Source: a virus. Taken from it: 24,956 nt of DNA. Shown here piece after piece: positions 6,289 to 24,162 of this stretch (within the stretch, counting starts at the first letter, position 1; each line of letters begins with the position of its first letter). The notes beneath the pieces are model-generated. The model was not told where the DNA came from. It worked only from the letters and a program-made list of their open reading frames with translations, and ran no database searches. A program made the translations under genes and the position numbers. The stretch is from positions 1 through 24,956 of IMG/VR virus record IMGVR_UViG_3300042301_003029; one strand, given 5' to 3'.

Positions 6289-6624
6289 ATGAAACTAATA
6301 AATTTACTTTTTGAATCAAAAGAAGAAAAAAAAGAAACTTTTGAAACATTTGCTGATACGCGCGAAGCTGGTGCAGAAAAGATTGTTGATAATGCCAAAA
6401 AGAAAGGCGGATTAGCATTACTTACATGGCATCATTTCAAAGTTAAATTACCATATTATAAACGAGCTGCCGAAGGTAAATTTGATTTAGATAAAGCAAA
6501 AAAAGAATATGAAGCTACATATAAAAAAATATCTACTTCAATGACACAAATTGAATTTCAACGAGAGGTTGGTCGTTTAGAAGTTTTAGGCGAATTGATT
6601 ATTCGTGAAGAACGAGGAAAGTAA
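6289..6624 (+). CDS. Small phage protein, DUF5661-like, with N-terminal LxE peptide
   Basis: The ATG at 6289 is preferred over the upstream GTG at 6274 because the GTG overlaps the previous gene's end and would translate the conserved box. The 111-aa product starts MKLINLLFE, one of five related N-terminal peptides in this segment. The rest (about 20-111) includes AGAEKIVDNAKKKGGLALLT and HHFKVKLPYYKRAAEGKF, then a helical C-terminus with QREVGRLEVLGELIIR. This resembles a small family, which I believe is DUF5661, seen in cyanophages and giant viruses. It is basic and helical. The function is unknown, and packaging in the virion head is inferred from the N-terminus. Confidence 0.75.
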   Translation: MKLINLLFESKEEKKETFETFADTREAGAEKIVDNAKKKGGLALLTWHHFKVKLPYYKRAAEGKFDLDKAKKEYEATYKKISTSMTQIEFQREVGRLEVLGELIIREERGK

Positions 6625-7755: not shown

Positions 7756-7956
7756 ATGAATCAGAATTTCATAGAACAATTATTTATTGATTCAATCAAC
7801 ATCATGGCAACCGGTGAATGGGAATGGCCCGATACATGGGACAAATCTCGCCGAATGCGTTTTTTAAATGAATCATTGCATTATGCAGAAGAACGAGAAT
7901 TATATGAACAATGTGCAATTATACGAGATGTCAAAGAAGCAGTCGACGAAATCTAA
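7756..7956 (+). CDS. Small protein with UVR-like motif
   Basis: This 66-aa protein has a Trp-rich N-terminal half (GEWEWPDTWDKSRRMRF, about 20-36) and a C-terminal helix pair, LHYAEERELYEQCAIIRDVK (about 41-60). The latter fits the UVR motif, (A)-x-x-x-E-x-Y-E-x-C/A-A-x-x-R-D, found in UvrB, UvrC, ClpC and McsA. The UVR motif mediates pairing with another UVR helix, for example in ClpC or its adaptor McsA. The gene overlaps the following clpS-like gene by 29 nt, so a link to the host Clp system is suggested by both motif and position. The motif match is by eye and the protein is short, so this stays tentative. Confidence 0.65.
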   Translation: MNQNFIEQLFIDSINIMATGEWEWPDTWDKSRRMRFLNESLHYAEERELYEQCAIIRDVKEAVDEI

Positions 7957-8203
7957 ACGAGGCAAGTATCAAGTAACCTTGCACAACGACAATCACAATA
8001 CGTTTGATCATGTTATCAATTGTTTGATTGATGCATGTGGACACAATGAATTACAAGCCCATCAATGTGCTTTGATAGTACACAATGCAGGTCGTTGTGT
8101 TGTATTTATCGATTGTTATGAAGATTGTGAAGCAGTTCATGAATACTTTATCAAGAATAAATTAAAATCAACATTGGAGAAACATGATAGGAAAAATTCA
8201 TAA
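7928..8203 (+). CDS. clpS: ClpS-like adaptor of the Clp protease
   Basis: The 91-aa product matches ClpS along most of its length: KYQVTLHNDNHNTFDHVINC (13-32), then ELQAHQCALIVHNAGRCVVF (41-60). The N-degron pocket residues are present: Asn20-Asp21 in the HND turn and His52 in IVH. The NTFDHVI and QCALIVH segments are closest to Bacteroidetes ClpS. ClpS binds N-terminal Leu, Phe, Tyr or Trp residues and hands such proteins to ClpA or ClpC with ClpP. The start at 7928 is preferred over in-frame ATGs at 7868-7904 because it gives the usual ClpS length and the least overlap with the UVR gene. The C-terminal CYEDCEAVHEYF differs from host ClpS. A phage copy could redirect or block host N-degron proteolysis. 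Confidence 0.88.
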   Translation: MSKKQSTKSKRGKYQVTLHNDNHNTFDHVINCLIDACGHNELQAHQCALIVHNAGRCVVFIDCYEDCEAVHEYFIKNKLKSTLEKHDRKNS

Positions 8204-8372
8204 AGCAGTTTTGCGATTTCGTATTGCAATACTCCATGCATCATATCATCGCAATATGCGTCATATGGAGAAGGCACGTAGTAAACATGACATTATAAAT
8301 TTTAAAAAATACGCATACCGCGCGGAAGATGCGTGGAGACAGATAGTTATATTAACTGAAAAACTAAAATAA
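8184..8372 (+). CDS. Small basic helical protein, unknown
   Basis: This 62-aa protein is rich in His, Arg and Lys and predicted helical throughout (AVLRFRIAILHASYHRNMRH, then KKYAYRAEDAWRQIVIL). The ATG overlaps the clpS stop by 20 nt and has GGAG 6 nt upstream (8176-8179), which supports it as a real start. No family is recognised. An amphipathic helix pair that binds membrane or nucleic acid is possible. Confidence 0.6.
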   Translation: MIGKIHKAVLRFRIAILHASYHRNMRHMEKARSKHDIINFKKYAYRAEDAWRQIVILTEKLK

Positions 8373-8377
8373 AACAA

Positions 8378-8764
8378 ATGGGTAGAAAATCAGCACACAC
8401 CGGTATGTCACCGAAAGATCGTTCTGCAATGATCATGGACAAATTTATTTCTAAAAACATAAAACGCGAAGCAGGACAACCTTTTAAATCAGGCATACGC
8501 AAAGATCCAAACATTCCGATACATATGTGGCCGTTACAAGATCAAATTGAGTATTGGGAGAATCGTACGGATGCAGATCGATTTGCAGACAAGTATCCGG
8601 TATATTCTTTTTGGATTACTGAGGTAAGAGATTTATCTAAAGTGCACCCAACATTCTTTGCATCAAAAATTAGCAAACTGCAAGAAATGGTTACGGAAAT
8701 GTATGATAACAAAACGTTTCCAAAAGAAGCGGTTAGAATTTTGAAAAATCACGGATTGTATTAA
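8378..8764 (+). CDS. Hypothetical phage protein
   Basis: This 128-aa soluble, mixed-charge protein has an N-terminal basic region (MGRKSAHTGMSPKDRSAM), a central aromatic segment (IPIHMWPLQDQIEYWENR, about 47-64) and a helical C-terminus ending KEAVRILKNHGLY. I recognise neither a domain nor a catalytic motif. It lies 5 nt after the previous gene and its stop overlaps the start of the HNH gene by 1 nt, so it belongs to the same transcription unit as clpS. Confidence 0.65.
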   Translation: MGRKSAHTGMSPKDRSAMIMDKFISKNIKREAGQPFKSGIRKDPNIPIHMWPLQDQIEYWENRTDADRFADKYPVYSFWITEVRDLSKVHPTFFASKISKLQEMVTEMYDNKTFPKEAVRILKNHGLY

Positions 8765-9318
8765 TGGAAGAAAAACAATACAAATACATTTACGGTTTAG
8801 GCAAAACGGCATTAGATATTCCAGAAAGCGAAATACGCTATGCAATGGAAAATACAAAATCTAATGCCGAAGCGGCTCGGTTCCTTAAGGTGTCATTCAC
8901 TACTTATAAGAAGTATGCTCGAATGTATGAGGACCGAGATACTGGAAAGACTTTGTATGAACTTCACAAAAATCAATTTGGAGTAGGGATACCAAAGGAT
9001 GTTTGCAAAGCCAACAAAGGTATATATTCGATTGATAATATCTTAACGGGCAAGCATCCTAACTATCCTACCTGGAAGCTACGCAATAGATTGTTAGCAT
9101 TGGCAATACTTCCAGAACAATGCAACAGCTGTGGTTATGCAGAACGCAGAATAACTGATGATACAGTACCTTTACTTTTAGACCATATTGATGGAGATGA
9201 AACAAATCATTGCATTGAAAACTTACAAATGCTTTGCATGAATTGTTACTATCAACAAACAGGTAATCCTTTTAATCAAGATAAAGAACGTTATTGGAAT
9301 TACAATTTGCTTGAGTGA
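8764..9318 (+). CDS. HNH endonuclease with N-terminal helix-turn-helix
   Basis: The 184-aa protein has an HTH-like region (about 22-54, SNAEAARFLKVSFTTYKKYA) and a C-terminal zinc-stabilised HNH domain: Cys120-x-x-Cys123, LLLDHIDGDETNHCIENL (138-154, with His141 and Asn153), and Cys158-x-x-Cys161 in LCMNCYYQQTGN. HNH enzymes nick or cut DNA using one metal ion. Free-standing HTH-HNH proteins in phages are usually homing endonucleases, and some serve in packaging. There is no intron or split gene next to it, so a free-standing homing or recombination role is likelier. It starts in the previous stop (TAATG). Confidence 0.85.
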   Translation: MEEKQYKYIYGLGKTALDIPESEIRYAMENTKSNAEAARFLKVSFTTYKKYARMYEDRDTGKTLYELHKNQFGVGIPKDVCKANKGIYSIDNILTGKHPNYPTWKLRNRLLALAILPEQCNSCGYAERRITDDTVPLLLDHIDGDETNHCIENLQMLCMNCYYQQTGNPFNQDKERYWNYNLLE

Positions 9319-12363: not shown

Positions 12364-13518
12364 ATGAAAAAGAAAGTAATTGGAGTACCGGCCGTAGTAA
12401 ATGGCAAACAAATTATTGTAGATCCGAATGGCAATGACATTAGTTCATTGTTTCGATCAATCATGATTAAACATGCACACGATAATGATGAAGCGTTAGT
12501 GTTTGATGAAGAAACAGGTCGATCTAAACGCATAAGTATATCAGACGTAGAATTAGAATTTGCACCAAGTAACCTAGAACCAGAAATGCCACAACCGCCA
12601 ACAGAAGCCGATCCAGTAATGCATCTTATTCAGAATGCACATAAAATTAAACCCGCAACCTTAGAAATGTCTGACATCAAATGGAAGTATTTGGTACGGT
12701 CAGCAGTGCGTGGTAAAAATATCATGATGGTTGGCCCTGCAGGTTGTGGTAAGACGCAAGCCGCAAAGGATCTTCCGGTAGCAACTAATCGTCCTTTCTT
12801 TTATTTTAACTTGGGTGCAACTCAAGATCCTCGCGCAACGCTTATTGGTAATACGCATTTCAAAGATGGTCAGACATCATTTGATGAATCTGCGTTTGTC
12901 AAGGCAATTCAAACAGAGAATGCCGTTGTATTGCTAGATGAGTTGTCTCGTGCGCACCCTGAAGCATGGAACATCTTAATGACAGTATTGGATGAGGGTC
13001 AAAGGTATCTGCGATTGGATGAAGATATCAATTCTCCTACCATTCGCGTTGCCTCTGGCGTATCGTTTATTGCAACAGCAAACATTGGTACCGAATATAC
13101 ATCTACAAGAGTATTGGACCGAGCATTGATGGATCGATTCGAAATCATTGAGGTTGATATTCTTTCTTTGTCTCAAGAAGAAGATTTATTGACTAAACGA
13201 TTCCCAACGGTATCCAAGGCATTGATTCATTCAGTAGCTGATATTGCAGATGCAACCCGTAAAGAATGGAGATCAGAAGAAGGTAAATTGACTACCATGG
13301 TATCCACTCGTATGACGGTGCGTGTATGTGAATTGTTAGCAGATGGCTTTTCTTTGTCAGAGGCCTCAGAGGTTGCAATTCTTCCATTCTTTGATGCATC
13401 GGGTGGTACGGATTCCGAAAGAACCTTTGTTAAACAAATCATTCAAAAACATATGGCAACTGAAATGAAAGACATTTTTAATACAGGAAATGATTCAGGC
13501 GAATGCACTCCATTCTAA
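12364..13518 (+). CDS. MoxR/CobS-type AAA+ ATPase
   Basis: The 384-aa protein has Walker A GPAGCGKT (124-131), Walker B VVLLDE (188-193), sensor-1 Asn240 in SFIATANIG and an arginine-finger region RALMDRFE (253-260), in the arrangement of MoxR/CobS ATPases. Residues 1-100 form a separate N-terminal part with a repeated acidic/Pro segment. MoxR proteins act as chaperones with a von Willebrand A (VWA) partner; the next gene is exactly such a protein. Marine phages often carry homologs labelled cobS, but no cobalamin gene is near, so I do not use that name. It has its own bipartite promoter and is followed by a hairpin terminator, so it is a single-gene unit. Confidence 0.88.
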   Translation: MKKKVIGVPAVVNGKQIIVDPNGNDISSLFRSIMIKHAHDNDEALVFDEETGRSKRISISDVELEFAPSNLEPEMPQPPTEADPVMHLIQNAHKIKPATLEMSDIKWKYLVRSAVRGKNIMMVGPAGCGKTQAAKDLPVATNRPFFYFNLGATQDPRATLIGNTHFKDGQTSFDESAFVKAIQTENAVVLLDELSRAHPEAWNILMTVLDEGQRYLRLDEDINSPTIRVASGVSFIATANIGTEYTSTRVLDRALMDRFEIIEVDILSLSQEEDLLTKRFPTVSKALIHSVADIADATRKEWRSEEGKLTTMVSTRMTVRVCELLADGFSLSEASEVAILPFFDASGGTDSERTFVKQIIQKHMATEMKDIFNTGNDSGECTPF

Positions 13519-13618: not shown

Positions 13619-15646
13619 ATGAGTATATTAGGCAAATTTGATGGCAGACGTTATTTTACCAATTCGGCATCTAGCTTTTGGTTGAATGAAGATTTTGATA
13701 CGGACTTTAAGCGTGGCGATAGTATTGACTATACCAAGTTAGCTGCGACGCAACGTGCTATTGCCAATTTCGTTAACATTGTTACCGGTAAACCAATTCC
13801 CGTAATATTTCAATCTGCAGATTCTAGTTATACTGATGGCGAGTCTGTTGTTATTGGTACCAAGCTTGACGATAAGAATTTCGATCCAGCAGTTGGATTA
13901 GCATTGCACGAAGGTTCGCATATTGCATTGACTGATTTTAACATGTTCAAAGGCGGTATATTAGCCAATACCAAAATGGCAAAAATTGTTCAGCTTAATG
14001 GATATGATCCAGAAATGTCAATGTCGCATAGTGATTTCGTAACTATTAAAAATTTATTGAATTGGATTGAGGATCGTAGAATTGACTTTCATATTTATAC
14101 AACCGCACCTGGTTACCGTATGTATTATGAGGCCATGTATAACAAATACTTCAATGACAAAGTTATTGACAAAGCTCTTCGCGAAAATGAAAAGACCGAT
14201 GAGTCGTGGGATGATTATATGTTCCATGTTATCAATTTAACTAATCCTAATCGCAATTTGCATGCATTGAAAGCATTACAAGATATTTGGAATGTAATTG
14301 ATTTGCGAAACATTCAAAGGCTTGAAAATACCGAACAGGCTTTGTTGATTGCGTGTCAAGTGTATAAACTTATTAAGGATGCTGTTGCAGAAGCAGAGGC
14401 GGGGCAACAAGCAAACAAACAAGATGAATCACAAGATGAATCACAACCGCAAGATGGTATGGGTAATGGCGGAGAAGGTAATGATGAAGATGAATCAGAA
14501 GATTCGGATGATGATTCAGAATCTGTCTCTTCATTGACACCAGCAGAACGAGCCAAATTGGAAAAGGCAATAGAACGTCAACGAGACTTCCTTAAAGGAG
14601 AAAATAAAAAGACAGGTAAGTTAACTAAGTCGCAAGCTAGCATCGTTAATGCAGTACGCGAATCGGGTACAGAGGTTCGTCAGGTTGCAACAAATGAATC
14701 TGGGACGGCTGACTTTGTTGATGCAATTGTTATTAAGAAGTTGACTCCAGGTATTATTGCATCAATGCCACAAATGTTTGAAAGTTACTCTGAAGACTAT
14801 GTATCTGGTAAACGCAGTCTAGATGAAAATCAGCATGCAGCTAAGAGTATATTGCGAAATGATGCATCAGTAACGAAAGGCATCGTTCTTGGTAAAATGT
14901 TAGGTCGCAAATTGCAACTTAGAAATGCAGACCGAACTTTGAAAACCACTCGCTTGCAAGCAGGTAAGATTGACCGAAGATTGATTTCGCAGTTAGGTTT
15001 TGATAATGCAAATGTATTTCATCGCATTGTAACGGATCGATATAAGAATTATTTTATTCATATTTCAATTGATGCATCTGGATCGATGAGTGGTGACAAG
15101 TTTCGTAATTCAATTACATCGGCAGTAGCAGTAGCACAAGCTGCGGCAATGACAACCGGAATCCGAGTACAAATTTCACTTCGGGGAACTGATAGTACCA
15201 TTGGTGGTAAAGAAAGAGCGGTAACAATATATGCATATGATTCGGCTCATGACAAACTAAGCAAGATCCGAAACTATTTCAAATATCTAAGTGTATTTGG
15301 ATGTACTCCAGAAGGCATTGCATTTAAGAGTATTGAACAAGACATTAAACGAGATGCTAAAGGTGATGAATGTATCTTTGTTAATTATTCAGATGGTTAT
15401 CCAACCAGCGTGTCGGGTTGTGCATATCAATACGATGGCGTAGGATTTACAAGACGCGTAATTAATGGGTTCCGTGAATTAGGTATTAACATTGTTAGTT
15501 ATTTCATTACATGTAGTTACGGCGGCGAGTCTAATTCGGAGACATTCCGTAGAATGTATGGCGTTGATTCGAAATTTATTGATCCAAAGAATATGAATGA
15601 TGTGGCTCGCACTTTGAATTCAAAATTCTTGGAATTAGCACAATAG
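13619..15646 (+). CDS. VWA-domain protein with N-terminal HExxH motif
   Basis: This 675-aa protein is the expected partner of the AAA+ ATPase. The N-terminal part has LALHEGSHIALTD (His97-Glu98-x-x-His101) and NWIEDRRID (149-156, Glu151), together a zinc-peptidase-like site. A very acidic low-complexity linker lies at about 263-302. The C-terminal VWA domain has the MIDAS motif DASGS starting at Asp485 and the later Asp592 in NYSDGYPT. Similar architecture occurs in CobT-like and other VWA-MoxR partners; MoxR-VWA pairs assemble metal centres or remodel complexes. Own promoter and the AAAGAG RBS are present. Whether the HExxH site is active is unknown. The AAA+ and VWA genes are co-regulated by twin promoters rather than one transcript. 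Confidence 0.87.
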   Translation: MSILGKFDGRRYFTNSASSFWLNEDFDTDFKRGDSIDYTKLAATQRAIANFVNIVTGKPIPVIFQSADSSYTDGESVVIGTKLDDKNFDPAVGLALHEGSHIALTDFNMFKGGILANTKMAKIVQLNGYDPEMSMSHSDFVTIKNLLNWIEDRRIDFHIYTTAPGYRMYYEAMYNKYFNDKVIDKALRENEKTDESWDDYMFHVINLTNPNRNLHALKALQDIWNVIDLRNIQRLENTEQALLIACQVYKLIKDAVAEAEAGQQANKQDESQDESQPQDGMGNGGEGNDEDESEDSDDDSESVSSLTPAERAKLEKAIERQRDFLKGENKKTGKLTKSQASIVNAVRESGTEVRQVATNESGTADFVDAIVIKKLTPGIIASMPQMFESYSEDYVSGKRSLDENQHAAKSILRNDASVTKGIVLGKMLGRKLQLRNADRTLKTTRLQAGKIDRRLISQLGFDNANVFHRIVTDRYKNYFIHISIDASGSMSGDKFRNSITSAVAVAQAAAMTTGIRVQISLRGTDSTIGGKERAVTIYAYDSAHDKLSKIRNYFKYLSVFGCTPEGIAFKSIEQDIKRDAKGDECIFVNYSDGYPTSVSGCAYQYDGVGFTRRVINGFRELGINIVSYFITCSYGGESNSETFRRMYGVDSKFIDPKNMNDVARTLNSKFLELAQ

Positions 15647-15659: not shown

Positions 15660-17300
<1,641 letters not shown>

Positions 17301-20327: not shown

Positions 20328-22766
20328 ATGAAACACGTTTATGCTATTATCATGATGTTGATTAACATCATTGCTTACACTCAATATTGTCCGGCATTGG
20401 GTCCGGATCAAATTCTTCCTTGCGGTGTTAATACTGCAACATTAACAGCAGACCTATCCCAATGTGGACCAGGTAATAATCCAAATGCTACAACCGCATA
20501 CACTGTATCGCAAATACCATATGTGGCACAAACCAATGTAGGTACATTAGTTGCATTAGGAGATGATGTGCAATCGGGTGTATTCAATATTGGATTTACT
20601 TTTTGTTTTTATGGAACAACATATACTCAGTTCCGAATTGGTTCCAATGGTTGGGTTTCTTTAGGAGCAGGAGTACAGCCAGCAACATTTACTTCATTGG
20701 CTATCCCAACGGCGAATGCAGCAGTACCAAAGAATTGTGTTATGTCACCATGGCAGGATTGGCACCCAGGAATTGGAGGACAAGTACGATATCAAGTTCA
20801 AGGTGTTGCTCCGTGCCGAAAGCTAGTTGTAAGTTGGATTGGAGTGCCAATGTATTCGTGCACTAACCTACTAGGAACATTTCATATTGTACTTTATGAA
20901 TCAACCAATGTGATTGAAACGTATATTGCCAATAAACCAAATTGTCCACAATGGGCAGGCGGTACTTCAGTGCACGGCATACACAATGCTGCAGGTACCC
21001 AAGCAGTAACGGTTGCTGGTAGAAATTCATCACAATGGACTGCTGTCAATGATGCACGTAGATGGACTCCTGCAGGTGCACCAATACAACCTACATTGGT
21101 TTGGTATCAAGTAGGCAATCTAGTTCCAATTGCTCAGAACGTAAATCAAATAACAGTAACACCTCCCGCCGGCGGAGCATATTATACTTGTCGTTTAGAA
21201 TATGGTCCTTGCAATGCAGGTTGGTCTACATGTAATGCAGGAGTAGGATTAGGACCAGACACGGTGCAAGTTGTACCAGGACCTCCGGTATTGAATCCGC
21301 CCAACGTTGTAGCAACAAATCCATTGTGTAATGGTGACTGTAATGGTAGCATCACGGTAACTCCAACTAATGGTACTGCTCCTTATACATATACTTGGAC
21401 AACGGGACAATCAACACCTAACATAACACAACTATGTGCTGGTAACTATTCCGTATTGATATCAGATGTTAATGGATGTACTGTAACTACTCCGGCTACA
21501 TTGATTGATCCAGCTCCATTGCAAGATCCAACCATGACATTTACTAATCCAGTATGTGCTGGTGATTGTAACGGAACGGCTACTGCTAATCCAATCGATG
21601 GCATAGCTCCTTATACATTTGCGTGGAACGATCAACAAATAACACAAACGGCAGTGTCGTTATGTCAAGGCACGTATGCTGTAGTAGTAACAGATGCTAA
21701 TGGGTGTGTTGCATCTAATACAATTACTTTGATAGATCCGCCTGTCGTTGTTACTGGACCAATTGCCTCATTAGATACTGTTTGTTTAGGAGAAACGGCA
21801 GCTGCATATTCAGTACCAACACAACCTGGATATACATACACATGGACATCAGTGGGTAACATAGTATCAGGACAAGGTACAAATGCCATTACGGTTGATT
21901 GGAGTGCGTTAAACGCAGGATTAGTTAGCGGGGCTGTTCAAGTAATTGCCGCAAATCAATTTGGATGTCTTAGTGCACCAGTAACTGAGAATGTATACAT
22001 ATTAAACATTGTACCAGTGATCGATGCAGTTGGACCATTTTGCGTATATGATGCAGATGCAACACTCACCGCAACACCTATAGGAGGAACATTTTCTGGA
22101 TTAGGTGTTACAGGCAATCAATTAGATCCGACTTATGCAGTAGGCACAAACAATGTATCATATACGTATACTCAAAGTGGTTGTTCATTTACTTCGTTCA
22201 CAACAATAACAGTATATCCGCAACCAGAAGTATTAGCAATTACACCAAACGATGAATTCATACAAATTTGCGAAGGAGATTCGGTTATATCAACATATGT
22301 AGCTACAGTTAATGCTCCGGGCGTAACAGAATGGACATTGCTGAGTAATACTACGCAATCGCCAACACTGACAGTATCTTGGAACAATGCTGGAATGTAT
22401 ACAATTCAAGCAACACACACGGTCGATGGATGTGTATCGCAACCTGCAACTACTACGGTAACAGTATCACGTTGTCCACAGCTTTTATATTATGTACCAA
22501 ATTCATTTACACCAGATGGCAATCAATACAATCAAACATGGAGGCCAGTATTTACCTCAGGCTTTGACCCAGCTGAATTTCATTTAACCATATTCAATCG
22601 TTGGGGCAATACTGTATGGGAATCATATTCAGCAATGGCATCATGGGATGGCACTTATAACAATACTGCGTGCCAAGATGGAGTATATACTTATAAGATT
22701 TGGTTTGGTGATAAAGAAACGGATGCTAAGTATACTGTAACGGGACATATTACATTGATACGATAA
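20328..22766 (+). CDS. Large secreted SprB-like adhesin with T9SS type B signal
   Basis: The 812-aa protein has an N-terminal signal peptide (about 1-18, MKHVYAIIMMLINIIAY). A Cys-containing beta domain follows (about 85-260; FTFCFYGTTYTQFRIGSNGW, then VMSPWQDWHP), typical of Bacteroidetes adhesins. Two SprB-type repeats (about 327-396 and 403-470) share NPxCxGDCNG, APYT and VTD/SD-x-NGC. Ig/PKD-like segments run to about 715. The last 92 residues (721-812; YVPNSFTPDGNQYNQTW, FNRWGNTVWE, WDGTYNN, DGVYTYKI) are a CHU_C/type B sorting domain, which directs export by the T9SS and surface attachment. It therefore should go through Sec, then T9SS, to the surface of the infected cell. Such genes are normal on Bacteroidetes chromosomes but unexpected in a phage; recent acquisition from a host is likely. 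Confidence 0.9.
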   Translation: MKHVYAIIMMLINIIAYTQYCPALGPDQILPCGVNTATLTADLSQCGPGNNPNATTAYTVSQIPYVAQTNVGTLVALGDDVQSGVFNIGFTFCFYGTTYTQFRIGSNGWVSLGAGVQPATFTSLAIPTANAAVPKNCVMSPWQDWHPGIGGQVRYQVQGVAPCRKLVVSWIGVPMYSCTNLLGTFHIVLYESTNVIETYIANKPNCPQWAGGTSVHGIHNAAGTQAVTVAGRNSSQWTAVNDARRWTPAGAPIQPTLVWYQVGNLVPIAQNVNQITVTPPAGGAYYTCRLEYGPCNAGWSTCNAGVGLGPDTVQVVPGPPVLNPPNVVATNPLCNGDCNGSITVTPTNGTAPYTYTWTTGQSTPNITQLCAGNYSVLISDVNGCTVTTPATLIDPAPLQDPTMTFTNPVCAGDCNGTATANPIDGIAPYTFAWNDQQITQTAVSLCQGTYAVVVTDANGCVASNTITLIDPPVVVTGPIASLDTVCLGETAAAYSVPTQPGYTYTWTSVGNIVSGQGTNAITVDWSALNAGLVSGAVQVIAANQFGCLSAPVTENVYILNIVPVIDAVGPFCVYDADATLTATPIGGTFSGLGVTGNQLDPTYAVGTNNVSYTYTQSGCSFTSFTTITVYPQPEVLAITPNDEFIQICEGDSVISTYVATVNAPGVTEWTLLSNTTQSPTLTVSWNNAGMYTIQATHTVDGCVSQPATTTVTVSRCPQLLYYVPNSFTPDGNQYNQTWRPVFTSGFDPAEFHLTIFNRWGNTVWESYSAMASWDGTYNNTACQDGVYTYKIWFGDKETDAKYTVTGHITLIR

Positions 22767-22785: not shown

Positions 22786-24162
22786 ATGAAAAAAATTTTA
22801 TTTAAACTGGTTTTATTTACTATATTATTATTTGGGTTTAACAAACAAACAGTACACGCTCAAGCATTTTGTAATAACCCAATGGGGAGTATTTCATTAA
22901 CTACATCTTGGCAATACTTTTATCATACTTGTTTAGGATATGTTTCTTTTCAAGCAACAGCAGGATGTACATATGAATTTACTTATTGTAATTCATTTGC
23001 TCCGTCTGCATATTATTCTGCAGATCCATATCTTACAATATCTACACAGCCAACATCTGGTGGGTTAGCACAGAATGATGATTGGTGTGGATTAGGTACA
23101 TATCTAACATGGACATGCCCTACTACTGGTACTTATTTTTTAAACTTAGGTAACTGTTGTTCATCAAGTTGTGGGTGTGGACAAAATCGTAACATGGGTT
23201 ATCGTTCAACCAATTGTGTTGCAACAGTAAATAATCCAACATCAATTACTCCGTCAGTAAATCCATTATGTGTTGGCAATTCTACTAACTTGGTTGCAAA
23301 TGGAGCTCAAGGTACTGTACATTGGTATACAGGTGGATGTGGTGTAACGCTGATTGGAACGGGTAATTCTCGATTAGTTTCTCCTACTACTACAACTACG
23401 TATTGGGCTAGAAATTTTAGCGGAGGACAATTTAGTACGGGTTGTGCTGCAGTAACTATAACAGTCAATCCTAGTTTACCTACTGCAGGACCTGTATCGG
23501 GAAACAATGTGATAATTGCAGGAACGTCGTCAACATATTCAATACCACCGTTACCTGGTGCAACATATCAATGGGCATATACGCAATCAATGACGGGCGT
23601 TCTTTGGATCAATATACCAGGCTCTAATAGTCCTAGCATAACACATACTTGGCCACAAACAACAACTAATGGTGCTATTCGTGTTACGGTAACAAATTCT
23701 AGTAATTGCAACAATCAAACATTGGTTTATTTGATTATAACGAATGGTGCACTGCCAGTCGAATTGCTTTATTTTGATGGCACCGCTTATGATAAAACAA
23801 ATTATCTAGAATGGGCAACTGCAACTGAATACAATTCAAGTCACTTTGTTGTAGAAAAAAGTGAAGATGGTTATGAATGGACATCAATTGGACAACAATG
23901 GGCTGCAATTAATTCAACACAAGAAATACGGTATGACTTAATGGATGATAACGTATATCCAGTAATCAATTATTATCGATTGAAACAATTTGATATTGAT
24001 GGCACAAATAAAGAGTATGGACCTATTGCAATAGATAATCGTCGAGACTTGAAGAAAGTAATTAGAACAATCAACTTGTTAGGCCAGCAAGTAAATGAAT
24101 CAGCAACTGGTATTGTTATCGAAATTTATGAAGATGGCACCATAAGAAAAACAATTCGTTAA
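22786..24162 (+). CDS. Secreted protein with T9SS type A-like C-terminal signal
   Basis: The 458-aa protein has a textbook signal peptide (1-26, MKKILFKLVLFTILLFGF to VHAQA). The N-terminal half is Cys-rich (about 27-150, with a CCSSSCGCGQN cluster). PKD/Ig-like repeats follow (about 150-320). Then comes LPVELLYFDGTAYDKTNYLE (about 324-343) with WATATEYNSSHFVVEKSEDG, a hallmark stretch seen just before the C-terminal signal in many T9SS cargo proteins. The last 35 residues (INLLGQQVN, then GIVIEIYEDGTIRKTIR) resemble a type A sorting domain. It begins 19 nt after the adhesin stop with GGAG as RBS, so the two are one operon and probably work together at the cell surface or outside the cell. 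The ligand is unknown. Confidence 0.87.
   Translation: MKKILFKLVLFTILLFGFNKQTVHAQAFCNNPMGSISLTTSWQYFYHTCLGYVSFQATAGCTYEFTYCNSFAPSAYYSADPYLTISTQPTSGGLAQNDDWCGLGTYLTWTCPTTGTYFLNLGNCCSSSCGCGQNRNMGYRSTNCVATVNNPTSITPSVNPLCVGNSTNLVANGAQGTVHWYTGGCGVTLIGTGNSRLVSPTTTTTYWARNFSGGQFSTGCAAVTITVNPSLPTAGPVSGNNVIIAGTSSTYSIPPLPGATYQWAYTQSMTGVLWINIPGSNSPSITHTWPQTTTNGAIRVTVTNSSNCNNQTLVYLIITNGALPVELLYFDGTAYDKTNYLEWATATEYNSSHFVVEKSEDGYEWTSIGQQWAAINSTQEIRYDLMDDNVYPVINYYRLKQFDIDGTNKEYGPIAIDNRRDLKKVIRTINLLGQQVNESATGIVIEIYEDGTIRKTIR

Follow-up and report, generated by a model that had tools for sequence, protein, structure and literature searches.

Linkage of a phage ClpS gene to a gene for a probable UVR protein in T4-like viruses of Bacteroidota

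In the window analysed here, which comprises the 24,956 nt of the IMG/VR virus record IMGVR_UViG_3300042301_003029, a gene for a ClpS-family adaptor of 91 aa (MSKKQ..., positions 7928-8203, + strand) is directly preceded by a gene for a 66-aa protein, U (7756-7956, +), which, judging from its sequence, is probably a UVR protein. A third conserved gene of unknown function, coding for the 62-aa protein T (8184-8372, +), shares 20 nt with the 3' end of clpS. Phage ClpS as a single gene is already known. What is new here is the linkage of U and ClpS with T in T4-like viruses of Bacteroidota, and no report of a ClpS-UVR pair was found in the open-access literature. The third co-conserved gene, the altered docking side of ClpS and the correspondence of U to F436, R443 and D444 of ClpC, all described below, go beyond an earlier note on this DNA.

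The strongest evidence that U and ClpS belong together is their linkage. When viral contigs were scanned with both ClpS and U, U was detected on about 85 distinct contigs, and ClpS lay directly 3' of U on every one of them, the sole exception being a contig that ends after U. The functional tie between the two proteins that the earlier note had proposed gains support from this invariable order. Counted over redundant loci, U was followed by ClpS in 116 of 117 cases and the pair by T in 113 of 116. Other neighbours of the cassette come and go within the clade, whereas the U-ClpS link is invariable, and no convincing UVR motif was found near U-less phage ClpS genes. In an independent approach via the HNH-like gene located two genes downstream of T, all three genes were present in 69/69 newly fetched close relatives and none of them in the four distant ones; the cassette is therefore core to the clade. 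Outside the overlaps, dN/dS was about 0.02-0.35 for U, ClpS and T (0.13-0.21 for T), and all three genes are under purifying selection. Since dN/dS is low and both genes are conserved on the contigs mentioned above, U and ClpS are real genes and not chance ORFs. They overlap by 29 nt (7928-7956, +) in frames that differ by +1, as had been stated before; the overlap is about 23-62 nt in most relatives and absent in locus L026, and the arrangement suggests translational coupling. Although the ORF of ClpS extends upstream to 7868 (111 aa), it is the start at 7928 that is conserved in relatives. For T, comparison with the UVR profile in hhalign gave 0.1% and thus no UVR similarity, and a weak match to DUF6435 was obtained in 3 of 16 members (best E=0.0023).

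On the evidence of sequence and predicted fold, the product of 7928-8203 is a genuine ClpS. It matched Pfam PF02617 with 63.1 bits against a cut-off of 23 (E=2.1e-17), and missed all NCBIfam ClpS equivalog cut-offs, the best score being 43.7 bits vs 107. Structure prediction, which the earlier note had named as the refuting test for the assignment, yielded a ClpS fold (AF2, pLDDT 89). The model matched M. smegmatis ClpS with PheAla at a TM-score of 0.80 (query) and 0.96 (target) and an rmsd of 0.9 Å, and its best 32 PDB matches were all ClpS structures, peptide-bound ones among them. The residues proposed to form the N-degron pocket, N20 (7985-7987), D21 (7988-7990) and H52 (8081-8083, all +), aligned with N34, D35 and H66 of E. 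coli ClpS, and the gatekeeper position carries the host-type F. Across the U-linked ClpS, the pocket residues are retained to 74% (N), 100% (D) and 87% (H), with changes of N34 to D in 25% and of H66 to D in 9% of the members (E. coli numbering).

The U-linked ClpS depart from their host counterparts in a segment that corresponds to residues 60-67 of the window protein (F-I-D-C-Y-E-D-C, 8105-8128, +). In host ClpS, three positions of the equivalent segment are occupied by K (95%), G (98%) and L (97%), whereas the U-linked proteins have F/Y (88%), D (94%) and C (94%) instead; U-less phage ClpS mostly retain the signature (K 88%, G 77%, L 66%). In the ClpS model, residues 60-67 run from the last part of the second strand into the beginning of helix 3. 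In E. coli ClpS, helix 3 and Glu79 are in contact with the N-domain of ClpA (PMC12493166). The signature thus appears, by alignment and model, to be lost beside the unfoldase-docking face, in an alignment of E. coli and phage ClpS where the gaps are ambiguous at about residues 56-70 and the counterparts of Glu79, Glu82 and Lys84 are not fixed. In a ClpS tree, a branch with 100/99 support splits the U-linked proteins from host and U-less phage ClpS, the latter being scattered among the host proteins; the rooting of the tree is unsure, as its alignment has few columns and the long branches of E. coli and SCTP-2 join the U side.

U consists of an N-terminal helix (residues 3-18), a conserved W-x-W-P-x-x-W linker and a UVR-like helical hairpin (residues ~25-66, coding ~7828-7953, +), and its predicted structure (pLDDT 91.7) has a helical hairpin at residues 30-65. 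The earlier note had placed a UVR-like helix at the end of the protein; the UVR likeness is upheld by a profile-profile match and a conserved residue pattern, but the element is the two-helix hairpin and not the last helix alone. Pfam UVR (PF02151) matched neither U nor 17 relatives, NCBIfam gave no match for the window U, a UVR HMM built from Bacteroidota yielded insignificant E-values of 0.6-18 against single U members, and Foldseek of U against the PDB returned nothing significant. PHROG 26557 (unknown function) weakly matched 6 of 17 U (best E=0.0009), and no PHROG match was confident. We obtained no real match by tblastn of the window U and two divergent U against named phages, one close, uncharacterised relative (A0A6J5NIV5) in BFVD, and no U in 296 Bacteroidota genomes in a search run without a positive control.

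For profile comparison, UVR motifs were collected from eight Bacteroidota genomes. The U family profile aligned with these motifs in hhalign over 41 ungapped columns with a probability of 75-78% overall, and 0/300 column-shuffled U profiles reached the score. Divided by UVR class, with two carriers of the DUF151/BFN class confirmed by Pfam and the other classes assigned by ORF length and context, the probability was 89% for DUF151/BFN tails, 18% for ClpC and <1% for UvrB and UvrC. We rejected mimicry of the UvrB or UvrC motif by U, as these two profiles matched no better than shuffles. Residues E48, Y/F50, E51, I56, R57 and D58 are conserved in U and correspond to the UVR pattern; among 51 distinct sequences, position 50 is Y or F, position 57 R (one K) and position 58 always D. 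In a second-look structural alignment (VIA-align), U 25-66 superposed gap-free on residues 133-174 of McsA and 411-452 of the S. aureus ClpC M-domain, pairing Y50 with F436, R57 with R443 and D58 with D444 of ClpC. The Z-scores of 4.4-4.8 are generic for hairpins, and only the register was used from this alignment because unrelated hairpins reach equal or higher values. Structure and sequence motif agree on one register of U relative to the McsA UVR and the ClpC M-domain. The three ClpC residues form resting-state M-domain contacts, and mutating them activates ClpC (PMC5699869).

By gp23, the phages of the cassette clade are T4-like: the T4-type major capsid protein was detected in the three longest of 13 relatives tested (E ~1e-74), the contigs of these relatives being incomplete genomes of up to 160 kb. 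We infer Bacteroidota as hosts because of the affinity of ClpS, for which the closest cellular relatives of the window protein are nearly all from Bacteroidota, and because a window protein carries a type IX secretion signal domain. The latter is encoded at 20328-22766 (+) and combines SprB repeats with the CHU_C signal domain (E=5e-13); together with the product of 22786-24162 (+), which has an Ig_7 (CHU_C-associated) domain, it is a phage protein with Bacteroidota cell-surface features. A Clp_N protein was present in 8/8 sampled Bacteroidota genomes, the respective ORF (~857-903 aa) also carried a UVR motif in at least 7 of the 8, and the sampled Bacteroidota encode their own ClpS. Neither ClpP nor a ClpA/ClpC-sized unfoldase was found in the 13 incomplete phage contigs. 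Their AAA_2 matches were considered as ClpC candidates and rejected, as they are MoxR/CobS-like proteins of ~380-395 aa, with weaker ones of ~310-330 aa, and thus too small. Since the sampled Bacteroidota encode ClpS and a UVR-bearing ClpC of about 866 aa and the phage contigs came up without ClpP and without an unfoldase of that size, gene content indirectly supports host ClpC as the putative target of the cassette.

We tentatively propose that the phage uses U and ClpS as the two parts of an adaptor that acts on host ClpC-ClpP, a reading that we regard as quite possible but short of probable. The ClpS half, with its host-type pocket, would deliver proteins that start with bulky hydrophobic residues to the N-domain of ClpC. 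The U half would present a UVR hairpin that resembles the tip of the ClpC M-domain, with Y50, R57 and D58 in place of F436, R443 and D444, and could pair with ClpC's own M-domain/UVR, as was suggested for ClpF in plastids. U would thereby anchor the phage ClpS on ClpC and might free ClpC from a putative resting state. The binding to ClpC, the UVR-UVR pairing, the contact between U and ClpS and the direction of the effect are all steps that we infer. One point against the adaptor is that, in the profile comparison, ClpC's own UVR motif ranks below the DUF151/BFN tails as a match for U. A bolder variant, which we consider unlikely, would make U an unlocking key that copies the M-domain tip, dissolves the resting state and switches host ClpCP on, with ClpS as the loader that chooses the substrates and T as a third component. 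A ClpS tied to a UVR mini-protein would offer a concrete and testable route to phage control of host ClpCP, and U a free-standing 66-aa module for probing the control of ClpC by its M-domain. The finding also points to N-degron proteolysis in Bacteroidota, which to our knowledge has been little studied.

Phage ClpS has already been proposed to bring targets to host ClpAP (Iyer et al. 2021, PMC7824862). Jumbo and huge phages likewise encode ClpS, as exemplified by gp708 of Agrobacterium phage Atu_ph07 (PMC6102473) and gp192 of Salicola phage SCTP-2, the latter with a ClpX-like gene two genes upstream. The U-less phage ClpS examined had no U or T alongside. Compared with cellular ClpS (PF02617; Bacteroidota, E. 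coli), the phage protein shares the fold, the N-D...H triad and the gatekeeper F, but has a short basic KRG NTE, carries the K, G and L replacements described above, and is encoded together with U and T. The closest parallel to the cassette is the plastid pair ClpF-ClpS1, in which the UVR domain protein ClpF associates with ClpS1 and ClpC and UVR-UVR pairing was suggested (PMC7966870). In both cases a UVR protein and a ClpS would meet on a UVR-bearing ClpC, the association being indicated by gene linkage in our case, and the cassette could thus be regarded as the phage parallel of a pair whose own mode of action remains open. ClpF has a YccV domain, whereas U, with 66 aa and no Pfam match, has no room for one; U may therefore act in the manner of ClpF without being one, and the resemblance is likely convergent. 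With McsA, DUF151/BFN-UVR proteins and the ClpC M-domain, U shares, in register, the hairpin and the (Y/F)-E-x(2)-A-x(2)-R-D motif, but in U the UVR-like hairpin stands alone, preceded by an N-terminal helix of its own, and falls below the Pfam model. A phage protein that modulates host ClpCP is also known from SPO1: Gp53 is a single 25-kDa Bacillus phage protein, for which the abstract mentions no ClpS partner (PMC6873191).

The same components might instead shut the host system down. In this case, the phage ClpS would occupy N-degrons and/or the ClpC N-domain without delivery and U would cap or lock the M-domain, so that host N-degron degradation or ClpCP is turned off. This inhibitor or decoy, which we hold to be somewhat unlikely, would fit the altered segment beside the unfoldase contact face and the pocket changes in part of the U-linked family, and also the short NTE. 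The 25-residue NTE of E. coli ClpS sits in the ClpA channel, where it is pulled on in the course of delivery, and delivery is inhibited when its entry is blocked (PMC9663308), whereas the phage NTE has about 11 residues, is basic and contains a conserved KRG. Pocket changes and a short NTE may thus result in weak or altered N-degron delivery by some U-linked ClpS. On the other hand, the NTE of the sampled host ClpS is only roughly twice as long as that of the phage proteins, and most members, which are under strong purifying selection, retain the pocket, for which a pure ClpC blocker would have no use.

The high rank of the DUF151/BFN tails raises the question of whether U targets another UVR protein of the host, either a DUF151/BFN-UVR protein or the repair pair UvrB-UvrC, and has only transcription in common with clpS. 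UvrB and UvrC are known to pair through their UVR motifs, but the profiles of these motifs matched U no better than shuffles. The invariable linkage to ClpS amid changing neighbours points to the Clp system instead, and in plastids a ClpC trap (CLPC1; PMC8889267) enriches DUF151-UVR proteins, so that we consider such a target quite improbable. It is more doubtful still that the UVR likeness is coincidental and U merely a small helical partner of ClpS, e.g. a stabiliser or cargo selector, with ClpS alone acting on ClpC: the failed Pfam, NCBIfam, PHROG and Foldseek searches and the generic Z-scores would suit this, but not the shuffling result next to the 0.1% of the cassette protein T, the common register from sequence and structure, or the (nearly) invariant E48, Y/F50, E51, R57 and D58.

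Several neighbouring genes of the cassette deserve mention. The start M-x-x-L-x-x-L-L-x-E, in most cases with S, A or G as the next residue, is common to many proteins that show no other relationship; in the window, such starts are located at 6289, 6624, 7013 and 10079 (+) and, by eye, at the ORF from 9315 (MISMKRLILEG), and they were also seen in loci L055-L126. Over 30 loci, this start was counted in 110 ORFs of the + strand, for which shuffles predict 0.9, and in 4 of the - strand. The gene directly before U codes for different enzymes in different relatives, with the tag kept. This tag looks like a capsid-targeting sequence of T4-like phages that is cut by the prohead protease, and on this reading a large number of proteins would therefore be packaged and perhaps injected. 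The HNH-like protein encoded at 8764-9318 (+), which has Cys-x-x-Cys pairs, is 76-100% identical over most of the clade, its neighbours being far less conserved; since it is evenly present, we count its gene among the core genes and do not take it for a homing enzyme. Downstream of the cassette, a gene for a MoxR/CobS-like AAA ATPase (12364-13518, +) was present in 27 of 30 loci, and a gene for a long protein with a vWA-like region by eye and no Pfam match (13619-15646, +) in 20 of 30. The window further codes for a histidine-kinase-type HATPase protein (1-1386, +) and a response-regulator receiver protein (1396-1833, +), possibly a phage-encoded two-component system, and for a full-length GroEL (15690-17300, +; NCBIfam 810-815 bits), here in a T4-like phage; no GroEL was seen in the 30 flanking loci, which end short of this position.
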